Assembly: GCF_022965805.1 (NCBI RefSeq)
Contig: NW_027331408.1
Span: forward strand, 1-64,000
Reading direction: 5' to 3'
Source: Primulina eburnea
Taxonomy: Eukaryota; Streptophyta; Magnoliopsida; Lamiales; Gesneriaceae
DNA length: 64,000 nucleotides
Below the pieces are notes generated by a model, which did no database searches, was not told the DNA's origin, and saw only the letters and a list, made by a program, of their open reading frames with translations. Numbering within the stretch: position 1 is the stretch's first letter; each line of letters opens with the position of its first letter. A program made the translations under genes and the position numbers. Positions 8,441-56,351 of this stretch are shown here, in pieces.

Positions 8441-8476
8441 TTCTCCCCCTCTAAAAAGGATTTCGTCCGCGAAATC
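8441..8476 (-). other. Polypurine tract and preceding inverted repeat, element 1
   Basis: The minus strand reads AGAGGGGGAGAA (8441-8452) directly before the 3' LTR: the plus-strand primer. Just upstream (8459-8476) is an inverted repeat with 7-bp arms GATTTCG and CGAAATC around CGGA. Elements 3 and 3b have the same layout with changed arms. Confidence 0.88.
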
Positions 8477-8578
8477 GAGTCTGAAGAATGACAATTCTGA
8501 ACAACAATACATTCAACTTAAGAATGAATTACAACTGAAGTACAACTGAAATTACAATCATAACTGAAAATACTACAA
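8477..8578. other. Short untranslated stretch 3' of element 1 gag-pol
   Basis: About 100 AT-rich bases between the gag-pol stop and the inverted repeat before the polypurine tract. I see no further feature in it. Confidence 0.6.
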
Positions 8579-11500
8579 CTAGAACAACTCTGGATGCTCT
8601 GACCGCATGCGACTCTCTAGTTCCCAAGTAGCTTCTTCAGTACCTCGGCGCTGCCACTGCACTAAGACAAGAGGAATAGTCTTATTCCGCAGTACCTTAT
8701 CCTTCCGGTCTAAGATCGAAACCGGTCTTTCCACAAAAGACAAATCCGGATTCAGCTGAACTTCTGTTGGATGCAAAACATGAGACTCATCCGCTACGTA
8801 TCGTCTCAGCAAGGACACATGAAACACATTGTGAACACTAGACAGATACGGTGGCAAAGCTAATCTGTAGGCCAAATCTCCCACACATTCTAAGATCTCA
8901 AAAGGACCAATGAATCTCGGAGATAGCTTACCCTTGAGTCCAAATCTCAGAATCCTCCGAAAAGGTGATACCTTGAGAAACACTTTCTCGCCTGCATCAA
9001 AATGAAGAGGTCTGCGCTTGGAGTTCGCATAACTTGCTTGTCGATCCTGAGCAGTCTTAATCCGCTGTTTGATCACAAGAACTTTGTCCATGGCCTGCTG
9101 AATCAATTCTGGACCCTCGACCTGTCGTTCTCCGACTTCTTCCCAGAACAGAGGAGTACGACAACGTCGACCATACAATGCTTCAAACGGAGACATACCA
9201 ATACTCCTATGAAAACTGTTGTTGTATGCAAACTCTATCAGTGGCAGATGATCCTGCCAAGCTGGCCCGAAATCCATCACACAAGATCTCAACATATCCT
9301 CAAGAGTACGAATAGTCCTCTCTGACTGACCGTCAGTCTCTGGGTGATATGCAGTACTCAAACTCAAGGTAGTGCCCAAAGCTTGCTGAAAGCTGCCCCA
9401 AAATCTAGATGTAAATCGAGGATCTCTGTCACTAACGATACTCACGGGCACACCATGAAACCGTACAATCTCCTGAATGTACAACCGTGCCATCCGATCG
9501 AAAGTGAAATCTCTGTTATACGGAAGAAAATGGGCAGACTTAGTAAGCCGATCCACTACCACCCAGATAGCATCTCTATTCCCCACAGACATAGGCAAGT
9601 GAGTCACGAAGTCCATCGTGATATGCTCCCACTTCCACTCCGGAATAGGAAGATTCTGCAACAAACCTCCAGGTCGTCGATACTCAGCCTTCACCTGCTG
9701 ACAGACTAGGCACTTGGAGACATACTGATAAACATTACGTTTCATACCTTTCCACCAAAATCGAGTCCTCAAATCCTTATACATCTTGTTGCTCCCTGGA
9801 TGAACACTCAACTTGCTACGATGAGCCTGAGACAAAATCTCCTCCCTCAAAGTGTCATCTTCCGGTACAACAACACGACCAGATAAGCACAAAAGACCCT
9901 CGGACTGATAGTGGAATCCAGAAGTATTATCTCCATCAGCCAACCGAGCTAATTTCTGAACCTTAGAATCAGACATCTGAGCATCTCTAATCCGAGAATA
10001 CAAAACTGGCTCGGACAAAATAGTAGCTATACGGATACTCTCTGTTCCCTTCCGATGCTTACAATTGAATCCCATCGAACAGAAATCCTGAATAATCCCA
10101 GATACAGCACAAGTCTGAAGAGCAGATAACCTCACCTTGCGACTAAGAGCATCGGCCGTGAGATTCGCAGATCCTGGATGATACTTGATCTCACAATCGT
10201 AATCCTTGAGTAGATCCATCCAACGACGCTGACGCATGTTCAACTCAGCCTGAGTGAACAGATACTTCAAACTCTTATGATCAGTGAAGATCTCAAATCG
10301 CTCACCATACAGATAATGGCGCCAGATTTTCAAAGCAAAAACGATCGCTGCTAATTCCAGATCATGAACAGGATAGTTTTCCTCATGAGGCTTTAACTGT
10401 CTCGACGCATAAGCAATCACATGCTCATTCTGCATCAGAACACACCCTAGTCCCTGTAAAGAGGCATCGGTGTAAACACTGAAACCACCAGATCCAGACG
10501 GTAAAGCCAAAACAGGCGCAGATGTCAAACGTCTGCGAAGTTCCCAGAAACTCTCTTCGCACTCTGATGTCCACTCAAATGAAACATCTTTCCGAGTGAG
10601 CTGAGTGAGTGGCTTAGCAATCTGAGAGAAGTTGACAATGAAACGGCGATAATACCCAGCCAATCCCAGAAAACTGCGGATCTCGGCTACTGTCGTCGGA
10701 CGCGACCAGTTCAATACCGCTTCCACCTTACTTGGGTCAACTGAAACTCCCTTGCTAGAAATGACATGACCAAGGAATACAACCCTGTCAATCCAAAACT
10801 CACATTTACTCAACTTCGCATAAAGCTGATTCTCGCGAAGTGTCTGTAAAATAATCCTTAAGTGTTGTGCGTGTTCTTGCTGATCATGCGAATAGATTAA
10901 GATATCATCTATAAACACCACAACAAACTTATCCAAGAAATCCCGAAATACCCGATTCATCAGATCCATAAAAACTGCTGGTGCATTCGTCACCCCAAAA
11001 GGCATAACCAGAAACTCATAATGCCCATACCGGGTCCTGAATGCAGTCTTCGATATGTCTCCCTGATGAACTCGAAGCTGATGATAACCAGACCTTAAAT
11101 CAATCTTGGAATATACAGAGGTACCTTGCAGTTGATCAAATAAATCATCAATCCGTGGCAACGGATACTTATTCTTTATCGTAGCACGATTCAACTGCCG
11201 ATAATCTATGCAGAGCCGCATAGAACCATCCTTCTTTTTGACAAAAAGAACTGGTGCTCCCCACGGGGACACACTGGGTCGAATATACCCCTTGTCAAGA
11301 AGATCCTGCAACTGCTGTTTCAATTCTTGCATCTCCGATGGAGCTAAACGATAAGGAGCTCTAGAGATTGGTGCCGTGCCTGGCACTAAATCAATGCCGA
11401 AATCTACTTCCCGAACAGGAGGAAAACCAGGAATCTCCTCGGGAAAAACATCCGGAAAATCGCAAACCACTGGAATGTCACCGACACCGATACTACCTGC

Positions 11501-12997
11501 GGACGAATCAATAGCATAGATAAGGTAGCCTTCCCCGCCCGACTCTAAAGCACGACAGGCTTTCAGAGCAGAAACCACAGGCATCGGGGGTCGCGCTCCC
11601 TCTCCATAGAAAAACCAACTGTCGCCCTCAACTGGACGAAACTGCACAAACTTCTGATAACAGTCCACAGTAGCTCTAAACACAGTCAGCACATCTATTC
11701 CCAGAATGCAATCAAAATCCTCCATCGCAAGAATCATCAAATTAGCAGTTAAAACATTACCCTCAAACTCTAGAGGACAACCCAAAACTAGACGTTTAGC
11801 TAGCACCGAATGACCCATCGGTGTGGAAACAGATACCACAACGTCCAAAGAAGTGAAGGGTAATGCATGACGCTTAGCAAATCTCGCAGATATGAATGAA
11901 TGCGATGCACCAGTATCAATGAGAACGTAAGCAGGTAATCCACATAATAAAAACACACCTGCGATAACTCTCTCGTTCTCCTCAGCCGCCTGATCCTGGT
12001 TAAGAGCAAAGACCTGCCCTTGAGTACGCGGTCGGAGGTTAGAACCCTGAGTAGACTGTCCCTGCTGTGGCCTCTGATGAACTGAAGCCTGAGAACCAGA
12101 TCCTGATCCTCCGCCCGTCTGTGGACAATCTCTCTTCATGTGGCCCATCTCACCGCACTTGTAACAAGCACCCGCAACCTTGCGACAACGCTCCGTCGGA
12201 TGATCCTTCCCGCAGTGCTGACACGGGCCCCTCTTCTTCCCAAAATGGTGAACTCCTCCAGATCCAGAGGAAGAAGAAGTAGATCCAGCCTTCTTAAATG
12301 CTTGGGCGCGGGGACCCAAAGAACTAGTAGGACGAGCAGACTGCATGGCTCGACCTCTCAACAAACTGCCCTCAGCCTGGCGACAACGATTTACAAGGCC
12401 CTCATACGATGTCGGATCATCGCAGACAACAACCCGATCATAAATCTCCTGATTGAGGCCCTGAAGAAAATGGTTATACTTGGCCATAGCATTGTCACTG
12501 ACATGCGGAACATACGGAAGCAACTCAAAGAACTTCTGCTGATACTCATCAACAGACAAACTTCCCTGCTTCAGATTGATCAACTCAATCGCCTTGGTCT
12601 GCAGAAGAGCTGGCGGAAAGTAAAGCAACATGAAAGCGGCTCGGAAATCGGCCCAAAGAACTCGACCCTGTCGCTGAACTATCGGTGCAGAGGTAGACCT
12701 CCACCACTTGCGCGCACCACCCTCCAGCAAGAAATCAAGGGTATCAATCTGCTGCTCCGCCGAGCACTGAAAAGTCTTGAAGCAGCTCTCCATCCTCTCA
12801 AGCCAGTTCTCCGCAACATCCGGAGTCTCACCGCCCTGAAAGAGGTTTCGGCCCCATCTGCAAGAACCGATGCATACTAAAACTCCGAGGCTCATCACGA
12901 CGGTGTTGACGACGTTCTCGATGCTCTCGACGACGCTCCCGATCGTCGCGGTCTCCCCAGCGTCCAACGCTGCCATGACTACTAGCATCGTCGTCAA
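8579..12997 (-). CDS. Gag-pol polyprotein of element 1 (Ty3/gypsy, chromovirus-like)
   Basis: A single open frame of 1472 codons counted from 12997; the first ~50 are probably not native because of the upstream frameshift. Seen in order: gag domain (about 60-220); zinc motifs C259-x2-C-x3-H-x4-C271 and CCHC knuckle C278/C281/H286/C291; aspartic protease DTGA at 361; reverse transcriptase with [10 protein letters not shown] (631-640) and FIDDIL (695-700), so FIDD in place of the common YIDD; RNase H with YTDAS (842) and FTDHKSL (904); integrase zinc finger H1059/H1066/C1096/C1099 and catalytic D1149, D1190, E1226 with 35 residues between the last two; a C-terminal chromodomain-like segment ending [19 protein letters not shown]. 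It would form virus-like particles, copy the RNA and integrate the DNA. Fusion of gag and pol in one frame is usual for chromoviruses. All catalytic residues I can locate are present. Confidence 0.95.
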
Positions 12998-13007
12998 AAC
13001 CAGACAT
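12845..13007 (-). pseudogene. True gag start of element 1, cut off by a frameshift
   Basis: An ATG at 13007-13005 (minus) opens a frame beginning [20 protein letters not shown], rich in Arg, Asp and Glu, as many plant gag N-termini are. It runs about 54 codons to an extra base near 12838-12846, where the reading moves into the long gag-pol frame (at [10 protein letters not shown]). The long frame itself has no ATG upstream of that point; its open stretch begins at a TTG at 12997. Either this copy carries an inactivating one-base insertion or the base is a sequencing error. Confidence 0.8.
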
Positions 13008-13077
13008 CTCTTAGCTACAAAAGTTACCAGAGATTAAACCCAAAAGAACAGTTCTAAATCCCAAAATCTTAATGCAT

Positions 13078-13089
13078 GCTCTGATACCA
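13078..13089 (-). other. Primer binding site of element 1
   Basis: The minus strand reads TGGTATCAGAGC four bases after the 5' LTR, complementary to the 3' end of plant initiator tRNA-Met. It primes minus-strand DNA synthesis. Confidence 0.9.
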
Positions 13090-14104
13090 TAAATGTAGTG
13101 ACCCGTTCCAGAATCACCTACTAATCAGAACTTAAGCATGCAAAATTAACATTTAAAACTGAATCAGGTAAACAGCGGAAAAACAGTAATACAACCCAAT
13201 CGAATCTGTAAGTACAAAATACTTAAACAACCAGATCGAACTAAATACCAAGAACAAATACCAACAACTACAGGTCAACCTCTGCCAGCTCCCTGTCCAC
13301 TCCCTCCTGGACCGTCCAACCTGAGACCTGCCCCATCGAATAGGGTGTCCAAAACAGAGATAAACCGAGGACGTGAGCATAAAACGCTCAGCACCGAAAG
13401 CATGAGTATACAAGACTATGACATGCATGTATGCAAAATGTACTGGATACCAGGATCTGGGTATATCGAAATACTGCTCAGGTAAATGACGTCAAGGTAT
13501 GTAGCACTCTGCGCCGTCGCACCAGGAGGTGGCTCCCATACCAAAATAAACCTGTGGATATACCGGTGACCTGACCACCGTCGGCCAACGGGGTCCAACC
13601 ATCCACAACAAACGAGGGCTGAGCACCCTCTCAACAGGCTATCTCAAAGATAATCAGGCTCAACATGATTATGCAAATGCCGCATAATAAACCATGCATC
13701 ATATGACAGATAATAATGCAACATATAAACATGCAACACATAGTAAAGCATACTCAATCCTGCTATCTCGGATAGTACTTTCGTACCTCAAACCAGTAGA
13801 TCCTAGCAATCAGCCCTAGAATCAAGCCTACAATCCAAGTGATACCATATCACTAAACCACATCTAAAAGCCTTAACTAGACTAATAGATACTCCCAAAT
13901 CTCAAAGGGAACCCAGAACTATACCTGCGTCCGTAGTCAGCCCACTGATGCCGCTAGCCCCCAACTAGAGCACAGCTCCGCTACAAAACCAGTAGCTCCC
14001 CGCTAGTGCCCGAACCTCGGGAAAAGACTAGAAACCCATCAAAAACGACTAAAACGCTCTGGAACTCTCGGAATTGGCGAGTGAAAAGTGAAGCCTCGCG
14101 CTTC

Positions 14105-14112
14105 TATTTATA
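14105..14112 (-). promoter_or_regulatory. TATA box of element 1 (5' LTR)
   Basis: The minus strand reads CTATAAATAG in a GC-richer context, just downstream of the inverted-repeat cluster. The 3' LTR has the same site at 8113-8120. Position and sequence fit a core promoter; the start site is not determined. Confidence 0.75.
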
Positions 14113-14120
14113 GACAACGA

Positions 14121-14385
14121 TCGGACGATCCGATCCACTTCGGACGCTCCGATCCGATACACTTCGGAAGATCCGATCCACTTCGGACGATCCGAACATT
14201 GCATGTCTTCCACGTGTCCAGCCACCTGTCTTCGGACGATCCGAACCCTGATCGGACGATCCGAACTCTGACATGACATGACTCGTCTGACTCCGAACAG
14301 AACGGACGATCCGAACCCACTTCGGACGATCCGAACCAACTTCGGACGATCCGAACCCGGTTCGGTCCTTCCGATCCCACCGAAA
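14121..14385 (-). promoter_or_regulatory. Cluster of TCGGA-N3-TCCGA inverted repeats in U3
   Basis: About eight copies of TCGGACGATCCGA or close variants, often within CTTCGGACGATCCGAAC, lie upstream of the TATA box. Each has 5-bp complementary arms around a 3-base centre. The arrangement looks like an array of sites for a dimeric DNA-binding protein; that role is inference. Short open frames here only translate the repeat. Confidence 0.8.
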
Positions 14386-16502
14386 TACAATTAATCCAAT
14401 AATTAACTCAAATTAGGCATCGGGATACTACATGTCATCCTCAAACGGATGGACAAACTGAAGTTGTCAATAGAACTTTGGGAACAATTTTGCGTGCTAT
14501 TCTTAAAAAGAACTTGGATTGACATTTCTATGGACTTTATTTTGGGGTTGCCTAGGACTAAGAAGGGGAGGGATTCTATTTATGGATTACTTTATGGGCT
14601 AAACTTTGCTCAATATTGTTGTAATCTACGACTTGTCATCCTCAAACGGATGGACAAACTGAAGTTGTAAATAGAACTTTGAGAACACTTTTGCGTGCTA
14701 TTCTTAAAAGAACTTGGATTGACATTTCTATGGACTTTATTTTGGGGTTGCCTAGGACTAAGAAGGGGAGGGATTCTATTTTTGGATTACTTTATGGGCT
14801 AAACTTTGCTCAATATTGTTGTAATCTACTACTTGTCATCCTCAAACAGATGGACAAACTGAAGTTGTCAATAGAACTTTGGGAACACTTTTGCGTGATA
14901 TTCTTAAAAAGAACTTGGACTGACATTTCTATGGACTTTATTTTGGGGTTGCCGAGGACTAAGAAGGGGAGGGATTCTATTTATGGATTACTTTATGGGC
15001 TAAACTTTGCTCAATATTGTTGTAATCTACGACTTGTCATCCTCAAACGGATGGACAAACTGAAGTTGTAAATAGAACTTTGAGAACACTTTTGCGTGCT
15101 ATTCTTAAAAAGAACTTGGATTGACATTTCTATGGACTTTATTTTGGGGTTGCCTAGGACTAAGAAGGGGAGGGATTCTATTTTTGGATTACTTTATGGG
15201 CTAAACTTTGCTCAATATTGTTGTAATCTACTACTTGTCATCCTCAAACGGATGTACAAACTGAAGTTGTAAATAGAACTTTGAGAACACTTTTGCGTGC
15301 TATTCTTAAAAAGAACTTGGATTGACATTTCTATGGACTTTATTTTGGGGTTGCCTAGGACTAAGAAGGGGAGGGATTCTATTTTTGAATTACATTACGG
15401 GCTAAACTTTTCTCAATATTGTTGTAATCTACTACTTGTCATCCTCAAACGGATGGACAAACTGAAGTTGTCAATAGAACTTTGGGAACACTTTTGCGTG
15501 ATATTCTTAAAAAGAACTTGGACTGACATTTCTATGGACTTTATTTTGGGGTTGCCTAGGACTAAGAAGGGGAGGGATTCTATTTATGGATTACTTTATG
15601 GGCTAAACTTTGCTCAATATTGTTGTAATCTACGACTTGTCATCCTCAAACGGATGGACAAACTGAAGTTGTAAATAGAACTTTGAGAACACTTTTGCGT
15701 GCTATTCTTAAAAAGAACTTGGACTGACATTTCTATGGACTTTATTTTGGGGTTGCCTAGGACTAAGAAGGGGAGGGATTTTATTTTTGGATTACTTTAT
15801 GGGCTAAACTTTGCTCAATATTGTTGTAATCTACTACTTGTCATCCTCAAACGGATGGACAAACTGAAGTTGTAAATAGAACTTTGAGAACACTTTTGCG
15901 TGCTATTCATAAAAAGAACTTGGACTGACATTTCTATAGACTTTATTTTGGGGTTGCCTAGGACTAAGAAGGTGAGGGATTCTATTTTTGGATTACTTTA
16001 TGGGCTAAACTTTGCTCAATATTGTTGTAATCTACTACTTGTCATCCTCAAACGGATGGACAAACTGAAGTTGTAAATAGAACTTTGAGAACACTTTTGC
16101 GTGCTGTTCTTAAAAAGAACTTGGACTGACATTTCTATGGGCTTTATTTTGGGGTTGCCTAGGACTAAGAAGGGGAGGGATTTTATTTTTGGATTACTTT
16201 ATGGGCTAAACTTTGCTCAATATTGTTGTAATCTACTACTTGTCATCCTCAAACGGATGGACAAACTGAAGTTGTCAATAGAACTTTGGGAACACTTTTG
16301 CGTGCTATTCTTAAAAAGAACTTGGATTGACATTTCTATGGACTTTATTTTGGGGTTGCCTAGGACTAAGAAGGGGAGGGATTTTATTTTTGGATTACTT
16401 TATGGGCTAAACTTTGCTCAATATTGTTGTAATCTACTACTTGTCATCCTCAAACGGATGTACAAACTGAAGTTGTAAATAGAACTTTGAGAACACTTTT
16501 GC

Positions 16503-19500
16503 GTGCTATTCTTAAAAAGAACTTGGATTGACATTTCTATGGACTTTATTTTGGGGTTGCCTAGGACTAAGAAGGGGAGGGATTCTATTTTTGAATTACT
16601 TTACGGGCTAAACTTTGCTCAATATTGTTGTAATCTACTAATTGTCATCCTCAAACGGATGGACAAACTGAAGTTGTCAATAGAACTTTGGGAACACTTT
16701 TGCGTGATATTCTTAAAAAGAACTTGGACTGACATTTCTATGGACTTTATTTTGGGGTTGCCTAGGACTAAGAAGGGGAGGGATTTTATTTTTGGATTAC
16801 TTTATGGGCTAAACTTTGCTCAATATTGTTGTAATCTACTACTTGTCATCCTCAAACGGATGGACAAACTGAAGTTGTAAATAGAACTTTGAGAACACTT
16901 TTGCGTGCTATTCTTAAAAAGAACTTGGACTGACATTTCTATAGACTTTATTTTGGGGTTGCCTAGGACTAAGAAGGTGAGGGATTCTATTTTTGGATTA
17001 CTTTATGGGCTAAACTTTGCTCAATATTGTTGTAATCTACTACTTGTCATCCTCAAACGGATGGAAAAACTGAAGTTGTAAATAGAACTTTGAGAACACT
17101 TTTGCGTGCTATTCTTAAAAAGAACTTGGATTGACATTTCTGTGGACTTTATTTTGGGGTTGCCTAGGACTAAGAAGGGGAGGGATTCTATTTTTTGATT
17201 ACTTTATGGGCTAAACTTTGCTCAATATTGTTGTAATCTACTACTTGTCATCCTCAAACGGATGGACAAATTGAAAATGTCGATAGAACTTTGGGAACAC
17301 TTTTGCGTGCTATTCTTAAAAAGAACTTGGACTGACATTTCTATGGATTTTATTTTGGGGTTGCCTAGGACTAAGAATGGGAGGGATTCTATTTATGGAT
17401 TACTTTATGGGCTAAACTTTGCTCAATATTGTTGTAATCAACGGCTTGTCATCCTCAAACGGATGGACAAAATGAAGTTGTAAATAGAAATTTGGGAACA
17501 CTTTTGCGTGCTATCTTAAAAGAACTTGGATGACATTTTTATGGACTTTATTTGGGGTGTCTAGGACTAAGAAGGGGAGGGATTCTATTATGGATACTTT
17601 ATGGGTTTAAACTTTATTCTCAATATTGTGTAATCTCCTACTTGTCATCCTCAACGGATGGACAAACTGAATTTGTAAATAGAACTTTGAGAACACTTTG
17701 CGTGCTATTTTAAAAAGAACTTGGACAGGACATTTCTATGGACTTTATTTTGGGAATGCCTAGGACTAAGAAGGGGAGGGATTTTATTTTTGGATTACTT
17801 TATGGGCTAAACTTTGCTCAATATTGTTGTAATCTACTACTTGTCATCCTCAAACGGATGGACAAACTGAAGTTTGTAAATAGAACTTTGAGAACACTTT
17901 TGCGCTGATGTTTTTAAAAGAACTTGGATTGATATTTCTATGGACTTTATTTTGGGGTTGCTAGGACTAAGAAGGGGAGGGATTCTATTTTTGGTTTCTA
18001 TGCATTTATTTTGGGGTTGCCTAGGACTAAGAAGGGGAGGGATTCTATTTATGGATTACTTTATGGGCTAAACTTTCTCAATATTGTTGTAATCTACTAC
18101 TTGTCATCCTCAAACGGATGGACAAACTGAAGTTGTAAATAGAATTTTGAGAACACTTTTTCGTGCTATTCTTAAAAAGAACTTGGACTGACATTTCTAT
18201 GGACTTTATTTTGGGGTTAGCCTAGGACTAAGAAGGGGAGGGATTCTATTTTTGGATTACTTTATGGGCTAAACTTTGCTCAATATTGTTGTAATCTACT
18301 ACTTGTCATCCTCAAACGGATGGACAAACTGAAGTTGTCAATAGAACTTTGGGAACAAATTTGCGTGCTATTCTTAAAAAGAACTTGGATTGACATTTCT
18401 ATGGACTTTATTTTGGGGTTGCCTAGGACTAAGAAAGGGAGGGATTCTATTTTTGGATTACTTTATGGGCTAAACTTTGCTCAATATTGTTGTAATCTAC
18501 TACTTGTCATCCTCAAACGGATGTACAAACTGAAGTTGTAAATAGAACTTTGAGAACACTTTTGCGTGCTATTCTTAAAAAGAACTTGGATTGACATTTC
18601 TATGGACTTTATTTTGGGGTTGCCTAGGATTAAGAAGGGGAGGGATTCTATTTTTGGATTACTTTATGGGCTAAACTTTGCTCAATATTGTTGTAATCTA
18701 CTACTTGTCATCCTCAAACGGATGGACAAACTGAAGTTGTCAATAGAACTTTGGGAACACTTTTGCGTGATATTCTTAAAAAGAACTTGGACTGAAATTT
18801 CTATGGACTTTATTTTGGGGTTGCCTAGGACTAAGAAGGGGAGGGATTCTATTTATGGATTACTTTATGGGCTAAACTTTGCTCAATATTGTTGTAATCT
18901 ACGACTTGTCATCCTCAAACGGATGGACAAACTGAAGTTGTAAATAGAACTTTGAGAACACTTTTGCGTGCTATTCTTAAAAAGAACTTGGACTGACATT
19001 TCTATGGACTTTATTTTGGGGTTGCCTAGGACTAAGAAGGGGAGGGATTTTATTTTTGGATTACTTTATGGGCTAAACTTTGCTCAATATTGTTGTAATC
19101 TACTACTTGTCATCCTCAAACGGATGTACAAACTGAAGTTGTAAATAGAAATTTGAGAACACTTTTGCGTGCTATTCTTAAAAAGAACTTGGATTGACAT
19201 TTCTATGGACTTTATTTTGGGGTTGCCTAGGACTAAGAAGGGGAGGGATTCTATTTTTGAATTACATTATGGGCTAAACTTTGCTCAATATTGTTGTAAT
19301 CTACTAATTGTCATCCTCAAACGGATGGACAAACTGAAGTTGTCAATAGAACTTTGGGAACACTTTTGCGTGATATTCTTAAAAAGAACTTGGACTGACA
19401 TTTCTATGGACTTTATTTTGGGGTTGCCTAGGACTAAGAAGGGGAGGGATTCTATTTATGGATTAATTTATGGGCTAAACTTTGCTCAATATTGTTGTAA

Positions 19501-22500
19501 TCTACGACTTGTCATCCTCAAACGGATGGACAAACTGAAGTTGTAAATAGAACTTTGAGAACACTTTTGCGTGCTATTCTTAAAAAGAACTTGGACTGAC
19601 ATTTCTATGGACTTTATTTTGGGGTTGCCTAGGACTAAGAAGGGGAGGGATTTTATTTTTGGATTACTTTATGGGCTAAACTTTGCTCAATATTGTTGTA
19701 ATCTACTACTTGTCATCCTCAAACGGATGGACAAACTGAAGTTGTAAATAGAACTTTGAGAACACTTTTGCGTGCTATTCTTAAAAAGAACTTGGACTGA
19801 CATTTCTATAGACTTTATTTTGGGGTTGCCTAGGACTAAGAAGGTGAGGGATTCTATTTTTGGATTACTTTATGGGCTAAACTTTGCTCAATATTGTTGT
19901 AATCTACTACTTGTCATCCTCAAACGGATGGAAAAACTGAAGTTGTCGATAGAACTTTGGGAACACTTTTGCGTGCTATTCTTAAAAAGAACTTGGACTG
20001 ACATTTCTATGGATTTTATTTTGGGGTTGCCTAGGACTAAGAATGGGAGGGATTCTATTTATGGATTACTTTATGGGCTAAACTTTGCTCAATATTGTTG
20101 TAATCAACGGCTTGTCATCCTCAAACGGATGGACAAAATGAAGTTGTAAATAGAAATTTGGGAACACTTTTGCGTGCTATTCTTAAAAGAACTTGGATTG
20201 ACATTTTTATGGACTTTATTTTGGGGTTGTCTAGGACTAAGAAGGGGAGGGATTCTATTTATGGATTACTTTATGGGTTAAACTTTATTCTCAATATTGT
20301 TGTAATCTACTACTTGTCATCCTCAAACGGATGGACAAACTGAATTTGTAAATAGAACTTTGAGAACACTTTTGCGTGCTATTTTTAAAAAGAACTTGGA
20401 CAGACATTTCTATGGACTTTATTTTGGGGTTGCCTAGGACTAAGAAGGGGAGGGATTTTATTTTTGGATTACTTTATGGGCTAAACTTTGCTCAATATTG
20501 TTGTAATCTACTACTTGTCATCCTCAAACGGATGGACAAACTGAAGTTGTAAATAGAACTTTGGAACACTTTTGCGTGCTATTCTTAAAAGAACTTGGAT
20601 TGACATTTCTATGCACTTTATTTTGGGGTTGCCTAGGACTAAGAAGGGGAGGGATTCTATTTTTGGATTACTTTATGGGCTAAACTTTGCTCAATATTGT
20701 TGTAATCTACTACTTGTCATCCTCAAACAGATGGACAAACTGAAGTTGTCAATAGAACTTTGGGAACACTTTGCGTGCTATTCTTAAAAGAACTTGGACT
20801 GACATTTCTATGGACTTTATTTTGGGGTTGCCTAGGACTAAGAAGGGGAGGGATTCTATTTTGGATTACTTTATGGGCTAAACTTTGCTCAATATTGTTG
20901 TAATCTACTACTTGTCATCCTCAAACGGATGGACAAACTGAAGTTGTCAATAGAACTTTGGGAACACTTTTGCGTGCTATTCTTAAAAAGAACTTGGATT
21001 GACATTTCTATGGACTTTATTTTGGGGTTGCCTAGGACTAAGAAAGGGAGGGATTCTATTTTTGGATTACTTTATGGGCTAAACTTTGCTCAATATTGTT
21101 GTAATCTACTACTTGTCATCCTCAAACGGATGTACAAACTGAAGTTGTAAATAGAACTTTGAGAACACTTTTGCGTGCTATTCTTAAAAAGAACTTGGAT
21201 TGACATTTCTATGGACTTTATTTTGGGGTTGCCTAGGACTAAGAAGGGGAGGGATTCTATTTTTGGATTACTTTATGGGCTAAACTTTGCTCAATATTGT
21301 TGTAATCTACTACTTGTCATCCTCAAACGGATGGACAAACTGAAGTTGTCAATAGAACTTTGGGAACACTTTTGCGTGATATTCTTAAAAAGAACTTGGA
21401 CTGACATTTCTATGGACTTTATTTTGGGGTTGCCTAGGACTAAGAAAGGGAGGGATTCTATTTTTGGATTACTTAATGGGCTAAACTTTGCTCAATATTG
21501 TTGTAATCTACTACTTGTCATCCTCAAACGGATGTACAAACTGAAGTTGTAAATAAAACTTTGAGAACACTTTTGCGTGCTATTCTTAAAAAGAACTTGG
21601 ATTGACATTTCTATGGACTTTATTTTGGGGTTTCCTAGGACTAAGAAGGGGAGGGATTCTATTTTTTGATTACTTTATGGGCTAAACTTTGCTCAATATT
21701 GTTGTAATCTACTATTTGTCATCCTCAAACGGATGGACAAACTGAAGTTGTCAATAGAACTTTGGGAACACTTTTGCGTGATATTCTTAAAAAGAACTTG
21801 GACTGACATTTCTATGGACTTTATTTTGGGGTTGCCTAGGACTAAGAAGGGGAGGGATTCTATTTATGGATTACTTTATGGGCTAAACTTTGCTCAATAT
21901 TGTTGTAATCTACGACTTGTCATCCTCAAACGGATGGACAAACTGAAGTTGTAAATAGAACTTTGAGAACACTTTTGCGTGCTATTCTTAAAAAGAACTT
22001 GGACTGACATTTCTATGGACTTTATTTTGGGGTTGCCTAGGACTAAGAAGGGGAGGGATTTTATTTTTGGATTACTTTATGGGCTAAACTTTGCTCAATA
22101 TTGTTGTAATCTACTACTTGTCATCCTCAAACGGATGTACAAACTGAAGTTGTAAATAGAACTTTGAGAACACTTTTGCGTGCTATTCTTAAAAAGAACT
22201 TGGATTGACATTTCTATGGACTTTATTTTGGGGTTGCCTAGGACTAAGAAGGGGAGGGATTCTATTTTTGAATTACATTACGGGCTAAACTTTGCTCAAT
22301 ATTGTTGTAATCTACTAATTGTCATCATCTGGACAAACTGAAGTTGTCAATAGAACTTTGGGAACACTTTTGCGTGATATTCTTAAAAAGAACTTGGACT
22401 GACATTTCTATGGACTTTATTTTGGGGTTGCCTAGGACTAAGAAGGGGAGGGATTCTATTTATGGATTACTTTATGGGCTAAACTTTGCTCAATATTGTT

Positions 22501-23600
22501 GCAATCTACGACTTGTCATCCTCAAACGGATGGACAAACTGAAGTTGTAAATAGAACTTTGAGAACACTTTTGCGTGCTATTCTTAAAAAGAACTTGGAC
22601 TGACATTTCTATGGACTTTATTTTGGGGTTGCCTAGGACTAAGAAGGGGAGGGATTTTATTTTTGGATTACTTTATGGGCTAAACTTTGCTCAATATTGT
22701 TGTAATCTACTACTTGTCATCTTCAAATGGATGGACAAACTGAAGTTGTAAATAGAACTTTGAGAACACTTTTGCGTGCTATTCTTAAAAAGAACTTGGA
22801 CTGACATTTCTATAGACTTTATTTTGGGGTTGCCTAGGACTAAGAAGGTGAGGGATTCTGTTTTTGGATTACTTTATGGGCTAAACTTTGCTCAATATTG
22901 TTGTAATCTACTACTTGTCATCCTCAAACGGATGGAAAAACTGAAGTTGTAAATAGAACTTTGAGAACACTTTTGCGTGCTATTCTTAAAAAGAACTTGG
23001 ATTGACATTTCTGTGGACTTTATTTTGGGGTTGCCTAGGACTAAGAAGGGGAGGGATTCTATTTTTTGATTACTTTATGGGCTAAACTTTGCTCAATATT
23101 GTTGTAATCTACTACTTGTCATCCTCAAACGGATGGACAAACTGAAGTTGTCGATAGAACTTTGGGAACACTTTTGCGTGCTATTCTTAAAAAGAACTTG
23201 GACTGACATTTCTATGGATTTTATTTTGGGGTTGCCTAGGACTAAGAATGGGAGGGATTCTATTTATGGATTACTTTATGGGCTAAACTTTGCTCAATAT
23301 TGTTGTAATCAACGGCTTGTCATCCTCAAACGGATGGACAAAATGAAGTTGTAAATAGAAATTTGGGAACACTTTTGCGTGCTATTCTTAAAAGAACTTG
23401 GATTGACATTTTTATGGACTTTATTTTGGGGTTGTCTAGGACTAAGAAGGGGAGGGATTCTATTTATGGATTACTTTATGGGTTAAACTTTATTCTCAAT
23501 ATTGTTGTAATCTACTACTTGTCATCCTCAAACGGATGGACAAACTGAATTTGTAAATAGAACTTTGAGAACACTTTTGCGTGCTATTTTTAAAAAGAAC
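16503..23600 (+). repeat. Higher-order repeat of array B (about 2.7-3.2 kb)
   Basis: The same ordered series of unit variants occurs from about 16503, 19169 and 22200. The CTAATTGTCATCC marker is spaced 2666 and then 3011 bp. Downstream markers of the second and third copies are offset by 3205 bp, because the third copy holds one extra unit (about 22951-23150) that the second lacks at a precise unit boundary. The first copy continues into the degraded stretch near 17500. Confidence 0.8.
21196..21396 (+). repeat. Representative satellite monomer (two integrase pieces)
   Basis: One clean 201-bp unit. Bases 21196-21264 read in frame as [23 protein letters not shown], the start of a Ty3/gypsy integrase core. 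From 21261 another frame reads [14 protein letters not shown], a stop, then [17 protein letters not shown] and [10 protein letters not shown], the end of the same core. The pieces overlap at TTTT. Aligned to the intact integrase of element 1 in this window (W1123 to about W1145, then from F1199), about 53 residues are missing, including both catalytic Asp; the region of the catalytic Glu (TDGQTE) remains. Confidence 0.93.
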
Positions 23601-26600
23601 TTGGACAGACATTTCTATAGGACTTTATTTTGGGTTGCCTAGGACTAAGAAGGGGAGGGATTTTATTTTTGGATTACTTTATGGGCTAAACTTTGCTCAA
23701 TATTGTTGTAATCTACTACTTGTCATCCTCAAACGGATGGACAAACTGAAGTTGTAAATAGAACTTTGAGAACACTTTTGCGTGATGTTCTTAAAAAGAA
23801 CTTGGATTGACATTTCTATGGACTTTATTTTGGGGTTGCCTAGGACTAAGAAGGGGAGGGATTCTATTTTTGTTTTCTATGCACTTTATTTTGGGGTTGC
23901 CTAGGACTAAGAAGGGGAGGGATTCTATTTATGGATTACTTTATGGGCTAAACTTTTCTCAATATTGTTGTAATCTACTACTTGTCATCCTCAAACGGAT
24001 GGACAAACTGAAGTTGTAAATAGAATTTTGAGAACACTTTTTCGTGCTATTCTTAAAAAGAACTTGGACTGACATTTCTATGGACTTTATTTTGGGGTTG
24101 CCTAGGACTAAGAAGGGGAGGGATTCTATTTTTGGATTACTTTATGGGCTAAACTTTGCTCAATATTGTTGTAATCTACTACTTGTCATCCTCAAACGGA
24201 TGGACAAACTGAAGTTGTCAATAGAACTTTGGGAACACTTTTGCGTGCTATTCTTAAAAAGAACTTGGATTGACATTTCTATGGACTTTATTTTGGGGTT
24301 GCCTAGGACTAAGAAGGGGAGGGATTTTATTTTTGGATTACTTTATGAGCTAAACTTTGATCCATTTTGTTGTAATCTACTACTTGTCATCCTCAAACGG
24401 ATGGAAAAACTGAAGTTGTCAATAGAACTTTGGGAACACTTTTGCGTGCTATTCTTAAAAAGAACTTGGATTGACATTTCTATGGACTTTATTTTGGGGT
24501 TGCCTAGGACTAAGAAAGGGAGGGATTCTATTTTTGGATTACTTTATGGGCTAAACTTTGCTCAATATTGTTGTAATCTACTACTTGTCATCCTCAAACG
24601 GATGTACAAACTGAAGTTGTAAATAGAACTTTGAGAACACTTTTGCGTGCTATTCTTAAAAAGAACTTGGATTGACATTTCTATCGACTTTATTTTGGGG
24701 TTGCCTAGGACTAAGAAGGGGAGGGATTCTATTTTTGGATTACTTTATGGGCTGAACTTTGCTCAATATTGTTGTAATCTACTACTTGTCATCCTCAAAC
24801 GGATGGACAAACTGAAGTTGTCAATAGAACTTTGGGAACACTTTTGCGTGATATTCTTAAAAAGAACTTGGACTGACATTTCTATGGACTTTATTTTGGG
24901 GTTGCCTAGGACTAAGAAGGGGAGGGATTCTATTTATGGATTACTTTATGGGCTAAACTTTGCTCAATATTGTTGTAATCAACGACTTGTCATCCTCAAA
25001 CGGATGGACAAAATGAAGTTGTAAATAGAAATTTGGGAACACTTTTGCGTGCTATTCTTAAAAGAACTTGGATTGACATTTTTATGGACTTTATTTTGGG
25101 GTTGTCTAGGACTAAGAAGGGGAGGGATTCTATTTATGGATTACTTTATGGGTTAAACTTTATTCTCAATATTGTTGTAATCTACTACTTGTCATCCTCA
25201 AACGGATGGACAAACTGAAGTTGTAAATAGAACTTTGAGAACACTTTTGCGTGCTATTCTTAAAAAGAACTTGGACTGACATTTCTATGGACTTTATTTT
25301 AGGGTTGCCTAGGACTAAGAAGGTGATGGATTCTATTTTTGGATTACTTTATGGGCTAAACTTTGCTCAATATTGTTGTAATCTACTACTTGTCATCCTC
25401 AAACGGATGGAAAAACTGAAGTTGTAAATAGAACTTTGAGAACACTTTTGCGTGCTATTCTTAAAAAGAACTTGGATTGACATTTCTGTGGACTTTATTT
25501 TGGGGTTGCCTAGGACTAAGAAGGGGAGGGATTCTATTTTTTGATTACTTTATGGGCTAAACTTTGCTCAATATTGTTGTAATCTACTACTTGTCATCCT
25601 CAAACGGATGGACAAACTGAAGTTGTCGATAGAACTTTGAGAACACTTTTGCGTGCTATTCTTAAAAAGAACTTGGACTGACATTTCAATGGACTTTATT
25701 TTGGGGTTGCCTAGGACTAAGAAGGGGAGGGATTCTATTTATGGATAACTTTATGGGCTAAACTTTGCTCAATATTGTTGTAATCAACGACTTGTCATCC
25801 TCAAACGGATGGACAAAATGAAGTTGTAAATAGAACTTTGGGAACACTTTTGCGTGCTATTCTTAAAAGAACTTGGATTGACATTTTTATGGACTTTATT
25901 TTGGGGTTGTCTAGGACTAAGAAGGGGAGGGATTCTATTTATGGATTACTTTATGGGTTAAACTTTATTCTCAATATTGTTGTAATCTACTACTTGTCAT
26001 CCTCAAACGGATGGACAAACTGAAGTTGTAAATAGAACTTTGAGAACACTTTTGCGTGCTATTTTTAAAAAGAACTTGGACTGACATTTTTATGGACTTT
26101 ATTTTGGGGTTGCCTAGGACTAAGATGGGGAGGGATTTTATTTTTGGATTACTTTATGGGCTAAACTTTGCTCAATATTGTTGTAATCTACTACTTGTCA
26201 TCCTCAAACGGATGGACAAACTGAAGTTGTAAATAGAACTTTGAGAACACTTTTGCGTGATGTTCTTAAAAAGAACTTGGATTGACATTTCTATGGACTT
26301 TATTTTGGGGTTGCCTAGGACTAAGAAGGGGAGGGATTCTATTTTTGGTTTCTATGCACTTTATTTTGGGGTTGCCTAGGACTAAGAAGGGGAGGGATTC
26401 TATTTATGGATTACTTTATGGGCTAAACTTTTCTCAATATTGTTGTAATCTACTACTTGTCATCCTCAAACGGATGGACAAACTGAAGTTGTAAATAGAA
26501 TTTTGAGAACTCTTTTGCGTGCTATTCTTAAAAAGGACTTGGAATGACATTTCTATGGACTTTATTTTGGGGTTGCCTAGGACTAAGAAGGGGAGGGATT

Positions 26601-27537
26601 CTATTTTTGGATTACTTTATGGGCTAAACTTTGCTCAAAATTGTTTTAATCTACTACTTGTCATCCTCAAACGGATGGACAAACTGAAGTTGTAAATCGA
26701 ACTTTGAGAACACTTTTGCGTGATGTTCTTAAAAAGAACTTGGATTGACATTTCTATGGACTTTATTTTGGGGTTGCCTAGGACTAAGAAGGGGAGGGAT
26801 TCTATTTTTGGTTTCTATGCACTTTATTTTGGGGTTGCCTAGGACTAAGAAGGGGAGGGATTCTATTTATGGATTACTTTATGGGCTAAACTTTTCTCAA
26901 TATTGTTGTAATCTACTACTTGTCATCCTCAAACGGATGGACAAACTGAAGTTGTAAATAGAATTTTGAGAACACTTTTGCGTGCTATTCATAAAAAGAA
27001 CTTGGACTGACATTTCTATGGACTTTATTTTGGGGTTGCCTAGGACTAAGAAGGGGAGGGATTCTATTTTTGGATTACTTTATGGGCTAAACTTTGCTCA
27101 ATATTGTTGTAATCTACTACTTGTCATCCTCAAACAGATGGACAAACTGAAGTTGTCAATAGAACTTCGAGAAAACTTTTGCGTGCTATTTTTAAAAAGA
27201 ACTTGGACTGACATTTCTATGGACTTTATTTTGGGGTTGCCTAGGACTAAGAAGGGGAGGGATTCTATTTATGGATTACTTTATGGGCTGAACTTTGCAC
27301 AATAAAGTTGTGGGGACCCGGGCTCTAATTCTTTTTCTTGGGATTAAATGGATCATTATTCTAAAACGTGGGTCAATTTTTTCACTTTTACATTTAATCA
27401 AATGTAATTAAACAAGCATCAATCTTTATTTCATTTACACATACAACATAATATGAATGTCATTAATATATAATCATGCAATGCGAGTCTAATCATGTCT
27501 AGACGCGACTTGACTAGAACTCTAGGGATCCCGTTGT

Positions 27538-27596
27538 GAATAAGACGTCACTGTCTGTCACCTACCCTCCCAATCGAGGTGTTGTACGTCTTATTC
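27538..27596. other. Long-range inverted repeat inside the solo LTR
   Basis: Perfect 11-bp arms GAATAAGACGT and ACGTCTTATTC separated by about 37 bases. The LTRs of element 3b have the same arms with one change each that still allows G-U pairing (43671-43729, 49460-49518). It lies downstream of the presumed promoter, so could fold in the RNA. Confidence 0.75.
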
Positions 27597-28518
27597 CTAG
27601 ACTTCGGCCTGATCTGTATCCACGTCTACAAAGGGGCGGTGATCTTCCCCTAAGCTGAGATATCGCCGAACATCTAGAAGTCTGCCTGATCTCCAGACTG
27701 TCCTATCTTAATGCATTAATACACAATCTGTAAACAAGCATAATCATTCTAATGCAATGCCACACGATCTGTAAACAAAGCATAGCAAGATTTGTATACA
27801 ATTCTATAAACAATAATAATCATGTCTAGATATAAACAATGAAACAAGTATGTGATTTTGGTTGGGAAACTCAAATGTGATCTCATTTGAGTCATGATTC
27901 CCCAAACAAAACATGTACTATACCTTTCGTCGCACAATCGCTGTCACGGTCGCAAAACTGAATCTGAAATGGAAATGTTGATATACAATCTATCAATCTC
28001 TAATCTAAATCAACACATATCCAAGTCACTACGTGATCTCGATACAATTTGACGGCATAACGACGTAATTCTCGATACCGGTCATTCCAATTTTTAACAG
28101 ATATCAACATTATCTCATTCTCAATCATTCTCATTCATAATCCAACACAATATCCATCCAAAACACAATAATTCTGCCCCAATAATTCATAAACCATACT
28201 GAAATTCATAGGAAATACATATGATATCATTTCTTTGATCCGTTTACAAATATATCATGCTCAATACGTCAAGAACACAATATAACTATCATATTCTAAT
28301 TTCCCAAACATCTGAATTTCGAAACCTGTTGAAATTAAATGAAACTTACATCACTTTGTAGCCGTCGATGCAAGGATCAATAATCTAAACTCGGATTTAA
28401 AATCGGATAGCTAAATTTTGATAAATCTTACCTCAAAGCTTTGAAGAAGTTTGAGGGTTCTAAGGAAGCTCTCGGTTCTTTGGCTGGAAAATGCAGAATG
28501 AGTAAATCAGCACGAATT

Positions 28519-28530
28519 CATATATATACT
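28519..28530 (-). promoter_or_regulatory. TATA-like site of the solo LTR
   Basis: An alternating TA run just downstream (minus strand) of the inverted-repeat cluster, in the same relative place as in the other LTRs here. Confidence 0.6.
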
Positions 28531-28578
28531 ATGCCATGTGTCACGTTAAGAAGAAGAGGTGGATGTTTCGCATGCATC

Positions 28579-28806
28579 ACCGTGGGTGCGGTACTGTAAG
28601 GAGCGCGGGTGCGCTAGGCTTTCGGCAGGACTTTTTATTTTTCAAAGGTGATGACCGCGGGTGCGGTCATGTAACTACCGCGGGTGCGGTCTCAACACCG
28701 CGGGTGCGGTCTAATTCTACCGCGGGTGCGGTGTGGCTACGGGAATGTTACTAATTTTCTGCTCATTGCACCGCGGGTGCGGTGCTTGCCAGACCGCGGG
28801 TGCGGT
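28579..28806 (-). promoter_or_regulatory. Cluster of ACCGC-GGGT-GCGGT inverted repeats, solo LTR
   Basis: About eight copies of ACCGCGGGTGCGGT or variants. One (28602-28615) reads AGCGCGGGTGCGCT: both arms changed and still complementary. The cluster lies upstream (minus strand) of the TATA-like site. Confidence 0.85.
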
Positions 28807-31800
28807 CTTGCACATCTAAAATTTAATATTTTCCCGCATCATTTCGCCCCGTTTGTTCTTGCGTTTCGTATTCAACTATCTACAAGGATCTCAGGCATTA
28901 CATTTCTCAATTGCTCCATATTTGTTGTTAATCTACTACTTGTCATCCTCAAACGGATGGACAAAACTGAAGTTGTAAATAGAACTTTGGAACACTTTTG
29001 CGTGCTATTCTTAAAAAAGAACTTGGATTGACATTTCTATGGACTTATTTTGGGGTTGCCTAGGACTAAGAAGGGGAGGGATTTCTATTTTTGGATTACT
29101 TTATGGGCTAAACTTTGCTCAATATTGTTGTAATCTACTACTTGTCATCCTCAAACAGATGGGACAAACTGAAGTTGTCAATAGAAACTTTGGGAACACT
29201 TTGCGTGCTATTCTTAAAAGAACTTGGATTGACATTTCTATGCACTTTATTTGGGGTTGCCTAGGACATAAGAAGGGGAGGGATTCTATTTTTGGATTAC
29301 TTTATGGGCTAAACTTTGCTCAATATTGTTGTAATCTACTACTTGTCATCCTCAAACAGATGGACAAACTGAAGTTGTCAATACAACTTTGGGAACACTT
29401 TTGCGTGCAATTCTTAAAAAACTTGGATTGACATTTCTATGGACTTTATTTTGGGGTTGCCTAGGAGGACTAAGAAGGGGAGGGATTCTATTTTTGGATT
29501 ACTTTGTGGGCTAAACTTTGCTCAATATTGTTGTAATCTACTACTTGTCATCCTCAAACAGATGGACAAACTGAAGTTGGCAATAGAACTTTGGGAACAC
29601 TTTTGCGTGCTATTCTTAAAAAGAACTTGGACTAACATTTCTATGGACTTTATTTTGGGGTTGCCTAGGACTAAGAAGAGGAGGGATTCTATTTATGGAT
29701 TACTTTATGGGCTGAACTTTGCAGAATAAAGTTGTAATCTACTACTTGTCATCCTCGAACGGATGGACAAACTGAAGTTGTAAATAGAACTTTGAGAACA
29801 CTTTTGCGTGCTATTCTTAAAAAGAACTTGGGCTGACATTTCTATGGACTTTATTTTGGGCTTGCCTAGGACTAAGAAGGGGAGGGATTAAGTTTTTGGA
29901 TTACTTTATGGGCTAAACTTTGCTCCATATTGTTGTAACCTACTACTTGTCATCCTCAAACGGATGGACAAACTGAAGTTGTCAATAGAACTTTGGGAAC
30001 ACTTTTGCGTGCTATTCTTAAAAAGAACTTGGATTGACATTTCTATGGACTTTATTTTGGGGTTGCCTAGGACTAAGAAGGGGAGGGATTCTATTTTTGG
30101 ATTACTTTATGGGCTAAACTTTGCTCCATATTGTTGTAATCTACTACTTGTCATCCTCAAACGGATGGACAAACTGAAGTTGTCAATAGAACTTTGGGAA
30201 CACTTTTGCGTGCTATTCTTAAAAGAACTTGGACTGACATTTTTATGCACTTTATTTTGGGGTTGCCTAGGACTAAGAAGGGGAGGGATTCTATTTTTGG
30301 ATTACTTTATGGGCTAAACTTTGCTCAATATTGTTGTAATCTACTACTTGTCATCCTCAAACGAGATGGACAAACTGAAGTTGTCAATAGAACTTTGGGA
30401 ACACTTTTGCGTGCTATTCTTAAAAGAACTTGGATTGACATTTCTATGCACTTTATTTTGGGGTTGTCTAGGACTAAGAAGGGGAGGGATTATATTTTTG
30501 GATTACTTTATGGGCTAAACTTTGCTCAATATTGTTGTAATCTACTACTTGTCATCCTCAAACGGATGGACAAACTGAAGTTGTCAATAGAACTTTGGGA
30601 ACACTTTTGCGTGCTATTCTTAAAAAGAACTTGGATTGACATTTCTATGGACTTTATTTTGGGGTTGTCTAGGACTAAGAAGGGGAGGGATTCTATTTTT
30701 GGATTACTTTATAGGGCTAAACTTTGCTCAATATTGTTGTAATCTACTACTTGTCATCCTCAAACAGATGGACAAACTGAAGTTGTCAATAGAACTTTGG
30801 AAACACTTTTGCGTGCTATTCTTAAAAAGAACTAAAACTTGGATTGACATTTCTATGGACTTTATTTTGGGGTTGCCTAGGACTAAGAAGGGGAGGGATT
30901 CTATTTTTGGATTACTTTATGGCTAAACTTTGCTCAATATTGTTGTAATCTACTACTTGTCATCCTCAAACAGATGGACAAACTGAAGTTGTCAATAGAA
31001 CTTTGGGAACACTTTTGCGTGCTATTCTTAAAAGAACTTGGACTGACATTTCTATGGACTTTATTTTGGGGTTGCCTAGGACTAAGAAGGGGAGGGATTC
31101 TATTTTTGGATTACTTTATGGGCTAAACTTTGCTCAATATTGTTGTAATCTACTACTTGTCATCCTCAAACGGATGGACAAACTGAAGTTGTAAATAGAA
31201 CTTTGAGAACACTTTTGCGTGCTATTCTTAAAAAGAACTTGGACTGACATTTCTATGGACTTTATTTTGGGGTTGCCTAGGACTAAGAAGGGGAGGGATT
31301 CTATTTTTGGATTACTTTATGGGCTAAACTTTGCTCCATATTGTTGTAATCTACTACTTGTCATCCTCAAACGGATGGACAAACTGAAGTTGTAAATAGA
31401 ACTTTGAGAACACTTTTGCGTGCTATTCTTAAAAAGAACTTGGATTGACATTTCTATGGACTTTATTTTGGGGTTGCCTAGGACTAAGAAGGGGAGGGAT
31501 TCTATTTTTGGATTACTTTATGGGCTAAACTTTGCTCAATATTGTTGTAATCTACTACTTGTCATCCTCAAACGGATGGACAAACTGAAGTTGTCAATAG
31601 AACTTTGGGAACACTTTTGCGTGCTATTCTTAAAAAGAACTTGGACTGACATTTTTATGGACTTTATTTTGGGGTTGCCTAGGACTAAGAAGGGGAGGGA
31701 TTTTATTTTTGGATAACTTTATGGGCTAAACTTTGCTCAATATTGTTGTAATCTACTACTTGTCATCCTCAAAGAGATGGACAAACTGAAGTTGTCAATA

Positions 31801-34064
31801 GAACTTTGGGAACACTTGTGCGTGCTATTCTTAAAAGAACTTGGATTGACATTTCTATGCACTTTATTTTGGGGTTGTCTAGTACTAAGAAGGGGAGGGA
31901 TTCTATTTTTGGATTACTTTATGGGCTAAACTTTGCTCCATATTGTTGTAATCTACTACTTGTCATCCTCAAACGGATGGACAAACTGAAGTTGTCAATA
32001 GAACTTTGGGAACACTTTGGCGTGCTATTCTTAAAAAGAACTTGGATTGACATTTCTATGGACTTTATTTTGGGGTTGTCTAGGACTAAGAAGGGGAGGG
32101 ATTCTATTTTTGGATTACTTTATAGGCTAAACTTTGCTCAATATTGTTGTAATCTACTACTTGTCATCCTCAAACAGATGGACAAACTGAAGTTGTCAAT
32201 AGAACTTTGGAAACACTTTTGCGTGCTATTCTTAAAAAGAACTTGGATTGACATTTCTATGGACTTTATTTTGGGGTTGCCTAGGACTAAGAAGGGGAGG
32301 GATTCTATTTATGGATTACTTTATGGCTAAACTTTGCACAATAAAGTTGTAATCTACTACTTGTCATCCTTAAACGGATGGACAAACTGAAGTTGTAAAT
32401 AGAACTTTGGGAACACTTTTGCGTGCTATTCTTAAAATAACATGGACTGACATTTCTATGCACTTTATTTTGGGGTTGCCTAGGACTAAGAAGGGGAGGG
32501 ATTCAATTTTTGGACTACTTTATGGGCTAAACTTTGCTCAATATTGTTGTAATCTACTAGTTGTCATCCTCAAACGGATGGACAAACTGAAGTTGTAAAT
32601 AGAACTTTGAGAACACTTTTGCGTGCTATTTTTAAAAAGAACTTGGACTGACATTTCTATGGACTTTATTTTGGGGTTGCCTAGGACTAAGAAGGTGAGG
32701 GATTCTATATATGGATTACTTTATGGGCTAAACTTTGCTCAATATTGTTGTAATCTACTACTTGTCATCCTCAAACAGATGGAAAAACTGAAGTTGTAAA
32801 TAGAACTTTGGGAACACTTGTGCGTGCTATTCTTAAAAGAACTTGGATTGACATTTCTATGCACTTTATTTTGGGGTTGCCTAGGACTAAGAAGGTGAGG
32901 GATTCTATTTTTGGATTACTTTATGGGCTAAACTTTGCTCAATATTGTTATAATCTACTACTTGTCATCCTCAAACGGATAAACAAACAGAAGTTGTAAA
33001 TAGAACTTTGAGAACACTTTTGCGTGTTATTCTTAAAAAGAACTTGGATTGACATTTCTGTGGACTTTATTTTGGGGTTGCCTACGACTAAGAAGGGGAG
33101 GGATTCTATTTTTTGATTACTTTATGGGCTAAACTTTGCTCAATATTGTTGTAATCTACTACTTGTCATCCTCAAACGGATGGACAAACTGAAGTTGTCA
33201 ATAGAACTTTGGGAACACTTTGGCGTGCTATTCTTAAAAAGAACTTGGATTGACATTTCTATGGACTTTATTTTGGGGTTGTCTAGGACTAAGAAGGGGA
33301 GGGATTCTATTTTTGGATTACTTTATAGGCTAAACTTTGCTCAATATTGTTGTAATCTACTACTTGTCATCCTCAAACAGATAGACAAACTGAAGTTGTC
33401 AATAGAACTTTGGAAACACTTGTGCGTGCTATTCTTAAAAGAACTTGGATTGACATTTCTATGGACTTTATTTTGGGTTGCCTAGGACTAAGAAGGGGAG
33501 GGATTCTATTTTTGGATTACTTTATGGGCTAAACTTTGCTCCATATTGTTGTAATCTACTACTTGTCATCCTCAAACGGATGGACAAATTGAAGTTGTCA
33601 ATAGAACTTTGGGAACACTTTTGCGTGCTATTCTTAAAAAGTACTTGGATTGACATTTCTATGGACTTTATTTTGGGGTTGCCTAGGAATAAGAAGGGGA
33701 GGGATTTTATTTTTGGATAACTTTATGGGCTAAACTTTGCTGAATATTGTTGTAATCTACTACTTGTCATCCTCAAACAGATGGACAAACTGAAGTTTTC
33801 AATAGAACTTAGGGAACACTTTTGCGTGCTATTCTTAAAAGAACTTGGACTGACATTTCTATGGACTTTATTTTGGGGTTGCCTAGGACTAAGAAGGGGA
33901 GGGATTCTATTTATGGATTACTTTATGGGCTGAACTTTGCACAATAAAGTTGTAATCTACTACTTGTCATCCTCAAACGGATGGACAAACTGAAGTTGTA
34001 ATAGAACTTTTAGAATACTTTGGGAACACTTTTGCGTGCTATTCTTAAAAGAACTTGGACTGAC

Positions 34065-34133: not shown

Positions 34134-35346
34134 ATTTCTATGGACTTTATTTTGGGGTTGCCTAGGACTAAGAAGGGGAGGAGTTTCTATTTTTGGATTA
34201 CTTTATGGGCTAAACTTTGCTCAATATTGTTGTAATCTACTACTTGTCATCCTCAAACAGATGGACAACTGAAGTTGTCAATAGAACTTTGGGAACACTT
34301 TTGCGTGCTATTCTTAAAAAGAACTTGGATTGACGTTTCTATGACTTTATTTTGGGGTTGCCTAGGACTAAGAAGGGGAGGGATTCTATTTTTGGATTAC
34401 TTTATGGGCTAAACTTTGCCAAATATTGTTGTAATCTACTACTTGTCAACCTCAAACAGATGGACAAACTGAAGTTGTCAATAGAATTTTGGGAACACTT
34501 TTGCGTGCAATTCTTAAAAAGAACTTGGATTGACATTTCTATGGACTTTATTTGGGGTTGACTAGGACTAAGAAGGGGAGGGATTCTATTTTTGGATTAC
34601 TTTATGGGCTAAACATTGCTCAATATTGTTGTAATCTACTACTTGTCATCCTCAAACGGATGGACAAACTGAAGTTGTAAATAGAACTTTTAGAACACTT
34701 TTGCGTGCTATTATTAAAAAGAACTTGGATTGACATTTCTATGGACTTTATTTTGGGGTTGCCTAGGACTAAGAAGGGGAGGGATTCTATTTTTGGATTA
34801 CTTTATGGGCTAAACTTTGCTCAATATTGTTGTAATCTACTACTTGTCATCCTCAAACGGATGGACAAACTGAAGTTGTCAATAGAACTTTGAGAACACT
34901 TTTGCGTGCTATTCTTAAAAAGAACTTGGACTGACATTTTTATGGACTTTATTTTGGGGTTGCCTAGGACTAAGAAGGGGAGGGATTCTATTTATGGATT
35001 ACTTTATGGGCTAAACTTTGCTCAATATTGTTGTAATCTACTACTTGTCATCCTCAAACGGATAAACAAACAAAAGTTGTAAATAGAACTTTGAGAACAC
35101 TTTTGCGTGCTATTCTTAAAAGAACTTGGACTGACATTTCTATGGACTTTATTTTGGGGTTGCCTAGGACTAAGAAGGGGAGGGATTCTATTTATGGATT
35201 ACTTTATGGGCTGAACTTTGCACAATAAAGTTGTAATCTACTACTTGTCATCCTCAAACGGATGGACAAACTGAAGTTGTAAATAGAACTTTGAGAATAC
35301 TTTGGCAACACTTTTGCGTGCTATTCTTAAAAGAACTTGGACTGAC

Positions 35347-35415
35347 GTAAAGTAATCCATAAATGACTCAACAAACCTTAACCTGATCATCACGCAAAAG
35401 TGTTCCCAATTGAAG
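35347..35415 (-). repeat. Inverted satellite fragment, copy 2
   Basis: Same composition as the copy at 34065, with small changes (GACGTAAAG for GACATAAAG, TTGAAGATT for TTGAGGATT). Confidence 0.85.
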
Positions 35416-56349: not shown

Positions 56350-56351
56350 AG

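Follow-up and report, generated by a model that had tools for sequence, protein, structure and literature searches.

How does the coding sequence of a retrotransposon become a satellite? The question is raised by the first 64,000 bases of contig NW_027331408.1 from Primulina eburnea (the window in what follows), in which a sequence-only reading had noticed a repeat with a unit made from two non-adjacent pieces of a Ty3/gypsy integrase. Retrotransposons giving rise to satellites is a well-known route, and the present array is a clear new example of it.

The array and its later insertions

When the whole window was scanned with Tandem Repeats Finder and with a consensus of the unit, 29,617 of the 64,000 bases fell to one satellite in eight blocks, all on the plus strand. 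The consensus found 156 matches on the plus strand and none on the minus strand, 141 of them near-full-length units (~201 bp) and 15 partial. The near-full units are on average 97.2% identical to the consensus (minimum 90.1%) and 94.9% identical to each other (minimum 85.6%), with 11 identical pairs. What the window holds is thus satellite DNA, a long head-to-tail array of similar units (141 units, 29.6 kb, no inverted match). Exact unit patterns had no match in collections of viral contigs and of genome contigs, as expected for a plant sequence.

The first block (31..7101) is preceded by 30 bases that also resemble the end of the unit, which indicates that the window begins within the array. 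The block claimed earlier at 14433-27308 is real; the consensus match spans 14426..27311 and contains 62 near-full units, the first seven bases possibly belonging to the neighbouring LTR. Then follow the blocks 28911..34060, 34134-35342, 35416-36624 and 36698-37607 (the last three separated by 73-bp inserts), 53360..54195 and, from about 63556/63557 to 64000, a block that continues past the window end. All eight consist of the same unit, as had been proposed, and the 29,617 bases in view agree with the suggested amplification to about 30 kb. Since both ends of the window lie inside the array or at most 30 bases from it, the full array extends further.

Between the blocks lie LTR elements. Element 1 (7102..14432, minus strand), of the Ty3/gypsy type, has LTRs of ~1340 bp that are 98.9% alike and an open frame of 1484 codons (8579-13033). 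A probable solo LTR occupies 27312..28910 (TGTGGGGACC...TTACA, the ends judged by eye); over 326 bp it is ~90% alike to the family of the elements at 37608..53359, where one LTR element sits inside another of opposite orientation. The LTRs of the outer one are at 37607-39931 and 51003-53359 (97.5%), those of the inner one at 42335-44320 and 48124-50109 (98.3%), and a gag open reading frame lies at 44648-45580. A protein search with the gag frame of the window yielded 20 matches, of which the 19 with a named source all come from Primulina or Dorcoceras (both Gesneriaceae). A copia-type element (54196..63556, plus strand) with LTRs of ~2.16 kb (99.3% alike) is flanked by the target duplication CTAAG at 54191-54195 and 63557-63561, from which it follows that this element split one continuous array. 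Inspection of the edges of the other three of the four insertions (element 1, the solo LTR and the outer nested element) revealed no target duplication, perhaps as a result of later exchange.

Two kinds of variant are superimposed on the regular array. At six places in the window unit bases 1-66 are repeated, giving a long unit of about 260-262 bp (23808..24069, plus strand; the others start at 31, 6706, 17930, 26283 and 26746). The unit following the 66-bp short piece has a C at base 14 in 6/6 cases, which points to one event that was copied. At 34134..37607 (plus strand) identity peaks at a lag of six units, and the array is organized in a higher-order repeat of 1282 bp composed of six units and a 73-bp insert. 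The inserts recur every 1282 bp (34061-34133, 35343-35415 and 36625-36697), each being composed of two inverted unit fragments and ~24 bp of filler that is absent elsewhere in the window; they mark a small higher-order repeat originating in a rearrangement.

Two pieces of an integrase core

When the polyprotein P0146 from Primulina huaijiensis was compared by tblastn with two joined consensus units, its residues 871-917 matched unit bases 58-198 with 86.3 bits and its residues 796-818 matched bases 197-265, running on into the following unit as far as its base 64, with 49.3 bits. Jointly the two matches, both to the Ty3/gypsy integrase core, account for all 201 bases of the unit. The best of 200 mononucleotide shuffles of the unit reached 22.7 bits, so that the integrase origin put forward by the sequence-only reading is confirmed by an alignment far beyond chance. 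In a protein search with one of the satellite open reading frames, 7996 candidates were scored, of which 3046 reached E <= 1e-3 (the best 6.9e-18). A Pfam scan of the same frame found no family at E <= 1e-3, which is not surprising for a broken fragment.

In the intact protein, residues 796-917 of P0146 correspond to 366 nt. Loss of 163 nt from the interior of this stretch and joining of the ends with a 2-nt overlap yields 201 nt, which bears out the predicted internal deletion. The deletion runs from the end of DSIF to the start of YFW, and at the join the two sides share the 7-nt overlap TATTTTT, somewhat longer than the TTTT recognized earlier. At the other, tail-to-head join the overlap is 2 nt or slightly more, and there the end of the segment does precede its start, as had been noted. 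The overlaps at both joins were deduced from the donor protein together with the unit sequence.

The spacing of the two pieces in intact integrases was determined with 260 retrieved proteins, namely 120 listed of 3046 and 120 listed of 635 from two satellite-related protein searches, and 20 from the search with the gag frame. Of these listed matches, 232 proteins allowed both pieces to be placed, and the gap from DSIF to FW is exactly 53 residues in 220 of the 232, 52 residues in three and of other length in nine. The earlier estimate of about 53 residues therefore holds for DSIF to FW and fails for KKG to STT, which are about 73 residues apart. By bit score against shuffles and by this intact spacing, homology of the unit to a mobile element is above chance.

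Not all of the active site went with the deletion. In an alignment of the relative P0013 with Ty3 and with retroviral integrases of solved structure, including that of PFV, three residues fall on positions of the catalytic triad: the Asp of SMDF on that of its first Asp, the earlier of the two Asp in the IV-DRD motif (IVSDRD) on that of its second, and the Glu in QTEVVN on that of its Glu. The unit retains the regions of the first Asp (SMDF) and of the Glu (QTEVVN); deleted is the second Asp (IVSDRD). The sequence-only reading, in which both Asp regions had been cut out, has to be corrected accordingly. In 25 of the 141 units the codon of the first Asp is altered by the C at base 14.

The donor and the loss of coding

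Within the 232 located proteins (among the matches listed) the two highest summed scores belong to the Primulina proteins P0146 and P0148, with 20/21 and 40/46 residues identical to the unit; at the protein level the donor match amounts to 87-95%, so that P0146 and P0148 stand for relatives of the source family. The donor probably belongs to a retrotransposon family present in Gesneriaceae, as judged from these protein similarities, and its integrase may be CRM-like. None of the 232 proteins located among the matches listed has the two pieces already adjacent at the same break points, so a donor in which the join pre-existed did not come to light. That a frame-broken subset of a core intact in many plant proteins makes up the unit argues that the satellite was derived from an element rather than captured by one.

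Element 1, the Ty3/gypsy element at 7102..14432, was considered as donor and rejected; the likeness of its integrase to the unit is weak (14/25 residues, in one of the two pieces). After masking of the arrays, the unit peptides matched within the window only element 1 and an unmasked array edge.

The same part of the integrase is rearranged in some relatives. P0058, a 157-residue integrase reading, has a gap of 2 between the pieces, an independent deletion of ~51 residues at nearly the same place with other break points, and in P0180 the gap is 24, the result of another deletion in the same area. In P0142 and P0143 the core region is duplicated, the copies being about 341 and 47 residues apart, respectively; these duplications may be starting points for tandem repeats, or else errors of assembly.

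Could the array still encode an integrase product? According to the tblastn coordinates the reading frame is shifted at both joins, and one donor codon is TAA in 139/141 units. For these two reasons the unit is unable to encode integrase, and a coding function of the array of this kind is ruled out. Open frames of about 160-200 codons are present in some units. For the first piece the substitution cells, counted by codon position (first/second/third), number 53/95/34; for the second they number 153/132/206, a mild excess at third positions. Much of these counts stems from a small number of shared polymorphic sites, so that the counts do not demonstrate selection.

Birth and role of the satellite

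We therefore propose, with a probability of roughly 90%, that a non-coding satellite was born from the integrase coding region of a Ty3/gypsy element by deletion, tandem joining and expansion. These three steps are supported by the sequence; the mechanism of each we infer. The internal 163 nt would have been lost by illegitimate recombination or microhomology-mediated repair, the unit itself, to judge from its overlaps, most likely being a microhomology-deletion product. A second event of this kind would have generated a tandem pair, which could then have been expanded and homogenized by unequal exchange, gene conversion or rolling-circle amplification. The variants (the 260-262-bp unit and the 1282-bp higher-order repeat with its inverted bits and filler) would have spread together with the array. 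Insertion of the LTR elements, whose paired LTRs are 97.5-99.3% alike, came later.

The closest precedents are the maize CRM1TR and CRM4TR repeats, which are likewise tandem arrays from Ty3/gypsy elements, formed via internal deletion and tandem joining and with retrotransposons between the repeats; in the model given for them in PMC3648361, deletions at short direct repeats were followed by gene conversion. They differ in that their monomers come from the LTR-UTR, whereas the present unit consists wholly of coding sequence of the integrase catalytic core (PMC3648361). The 250-bp centromeric repeat of wheat and rye, from cereba-like gag, is also related to a Ty3/gypsy coding domain (cited in PMC3648361); it contains gag and a CAA microsatellite rather than integrase, and no internal deletion is mentioned for it in that citation. 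Centromeric repeats of potato and the satellite Sobo have retrotransposon-related sequence too, although the unit of Sobo is 4.7 kb long and related to LTRs (cited in PMC3648361). The FabTR satellites of Lathyrus, derived from repeats in the 3'UTR of Ogre, began within Ty3/gypsy elements and then expanded, but they started from tandem repeats borne by the element itself in a non-coding region (PMC7004042). An origin of satellites in LTR, UTR or gag sequence has thus already been published (PMC7004042, PMC3648361). A search of the open-licence literature by title and start of abstract gave no integrase-core satellite among the matches listed, and one for Gesneriaceae or Primulina centromeres listed only unrelated papers.

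The Lathyrus case suggests another route, in which a replicating, non-autonomous retrotransposon acquired both the deletion and the tandem pair when reverse transcription switched templates, and only the expansion took place in the genome. Element-borne repeats were the source of nine satellites there, the same having been proposed for the 3'UTR repeats of Tat/Ogre elements (PMC7004042), and duplicated integrase segments occur in the retrieved relatives P0141, P0142 and P0143. However, the published element-borne cases sit in 3'UTRs, not in the integrase core, the blocks in the window are bordered only by later insertions, and the unit peptides have no close match there (one weak, to element 1), so that we regard this route as unlikely. 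That copies were collapsed or expanded by mis-assembly is highly improbable. Long arrays are prone to such errors, and target duplications were missing at three of the four insertions where inspected; but the 141 units are mutually distinct, the 11 identical pairs excepted, the variants are structured, and the copia-type insertion has its clean CTAAG duplication.

A different question is what the array, once formed by deletion and expansion, does. The unit length near 200 bp, the pairwise identity of 94.9%, the ~30 kb in view and the invasion by LTR elements, together with the fact that retrotransposon-derived repeats can be centromeric (PMC3648361), make it tempting to regard the satellite as a functional CENH3-bound centromeric repeat of the plant that replaced an older one. 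Blocks in pericentromeric, subtelomeric or interstitial position could appear identical, and we offer the centromeric reading as a tentative one, with the odds against it. Most likely the array would act as heterochromatic DNA only. It is doubtful that a gesneriad centromere satellite was made here de novo from an integrase core; if true, this would be a fully traced conversion of a coding domain into centromere DNA.

The source of every base in the satellite unit can be named, and the two joins are located to within a few bases. This makes the steps of its birth, from deletion and tandem joining to expansion and higher-order repeats, testable, and it means that besides LTR or UTR sequence also conserved coding sequence is able to seed a satellite.
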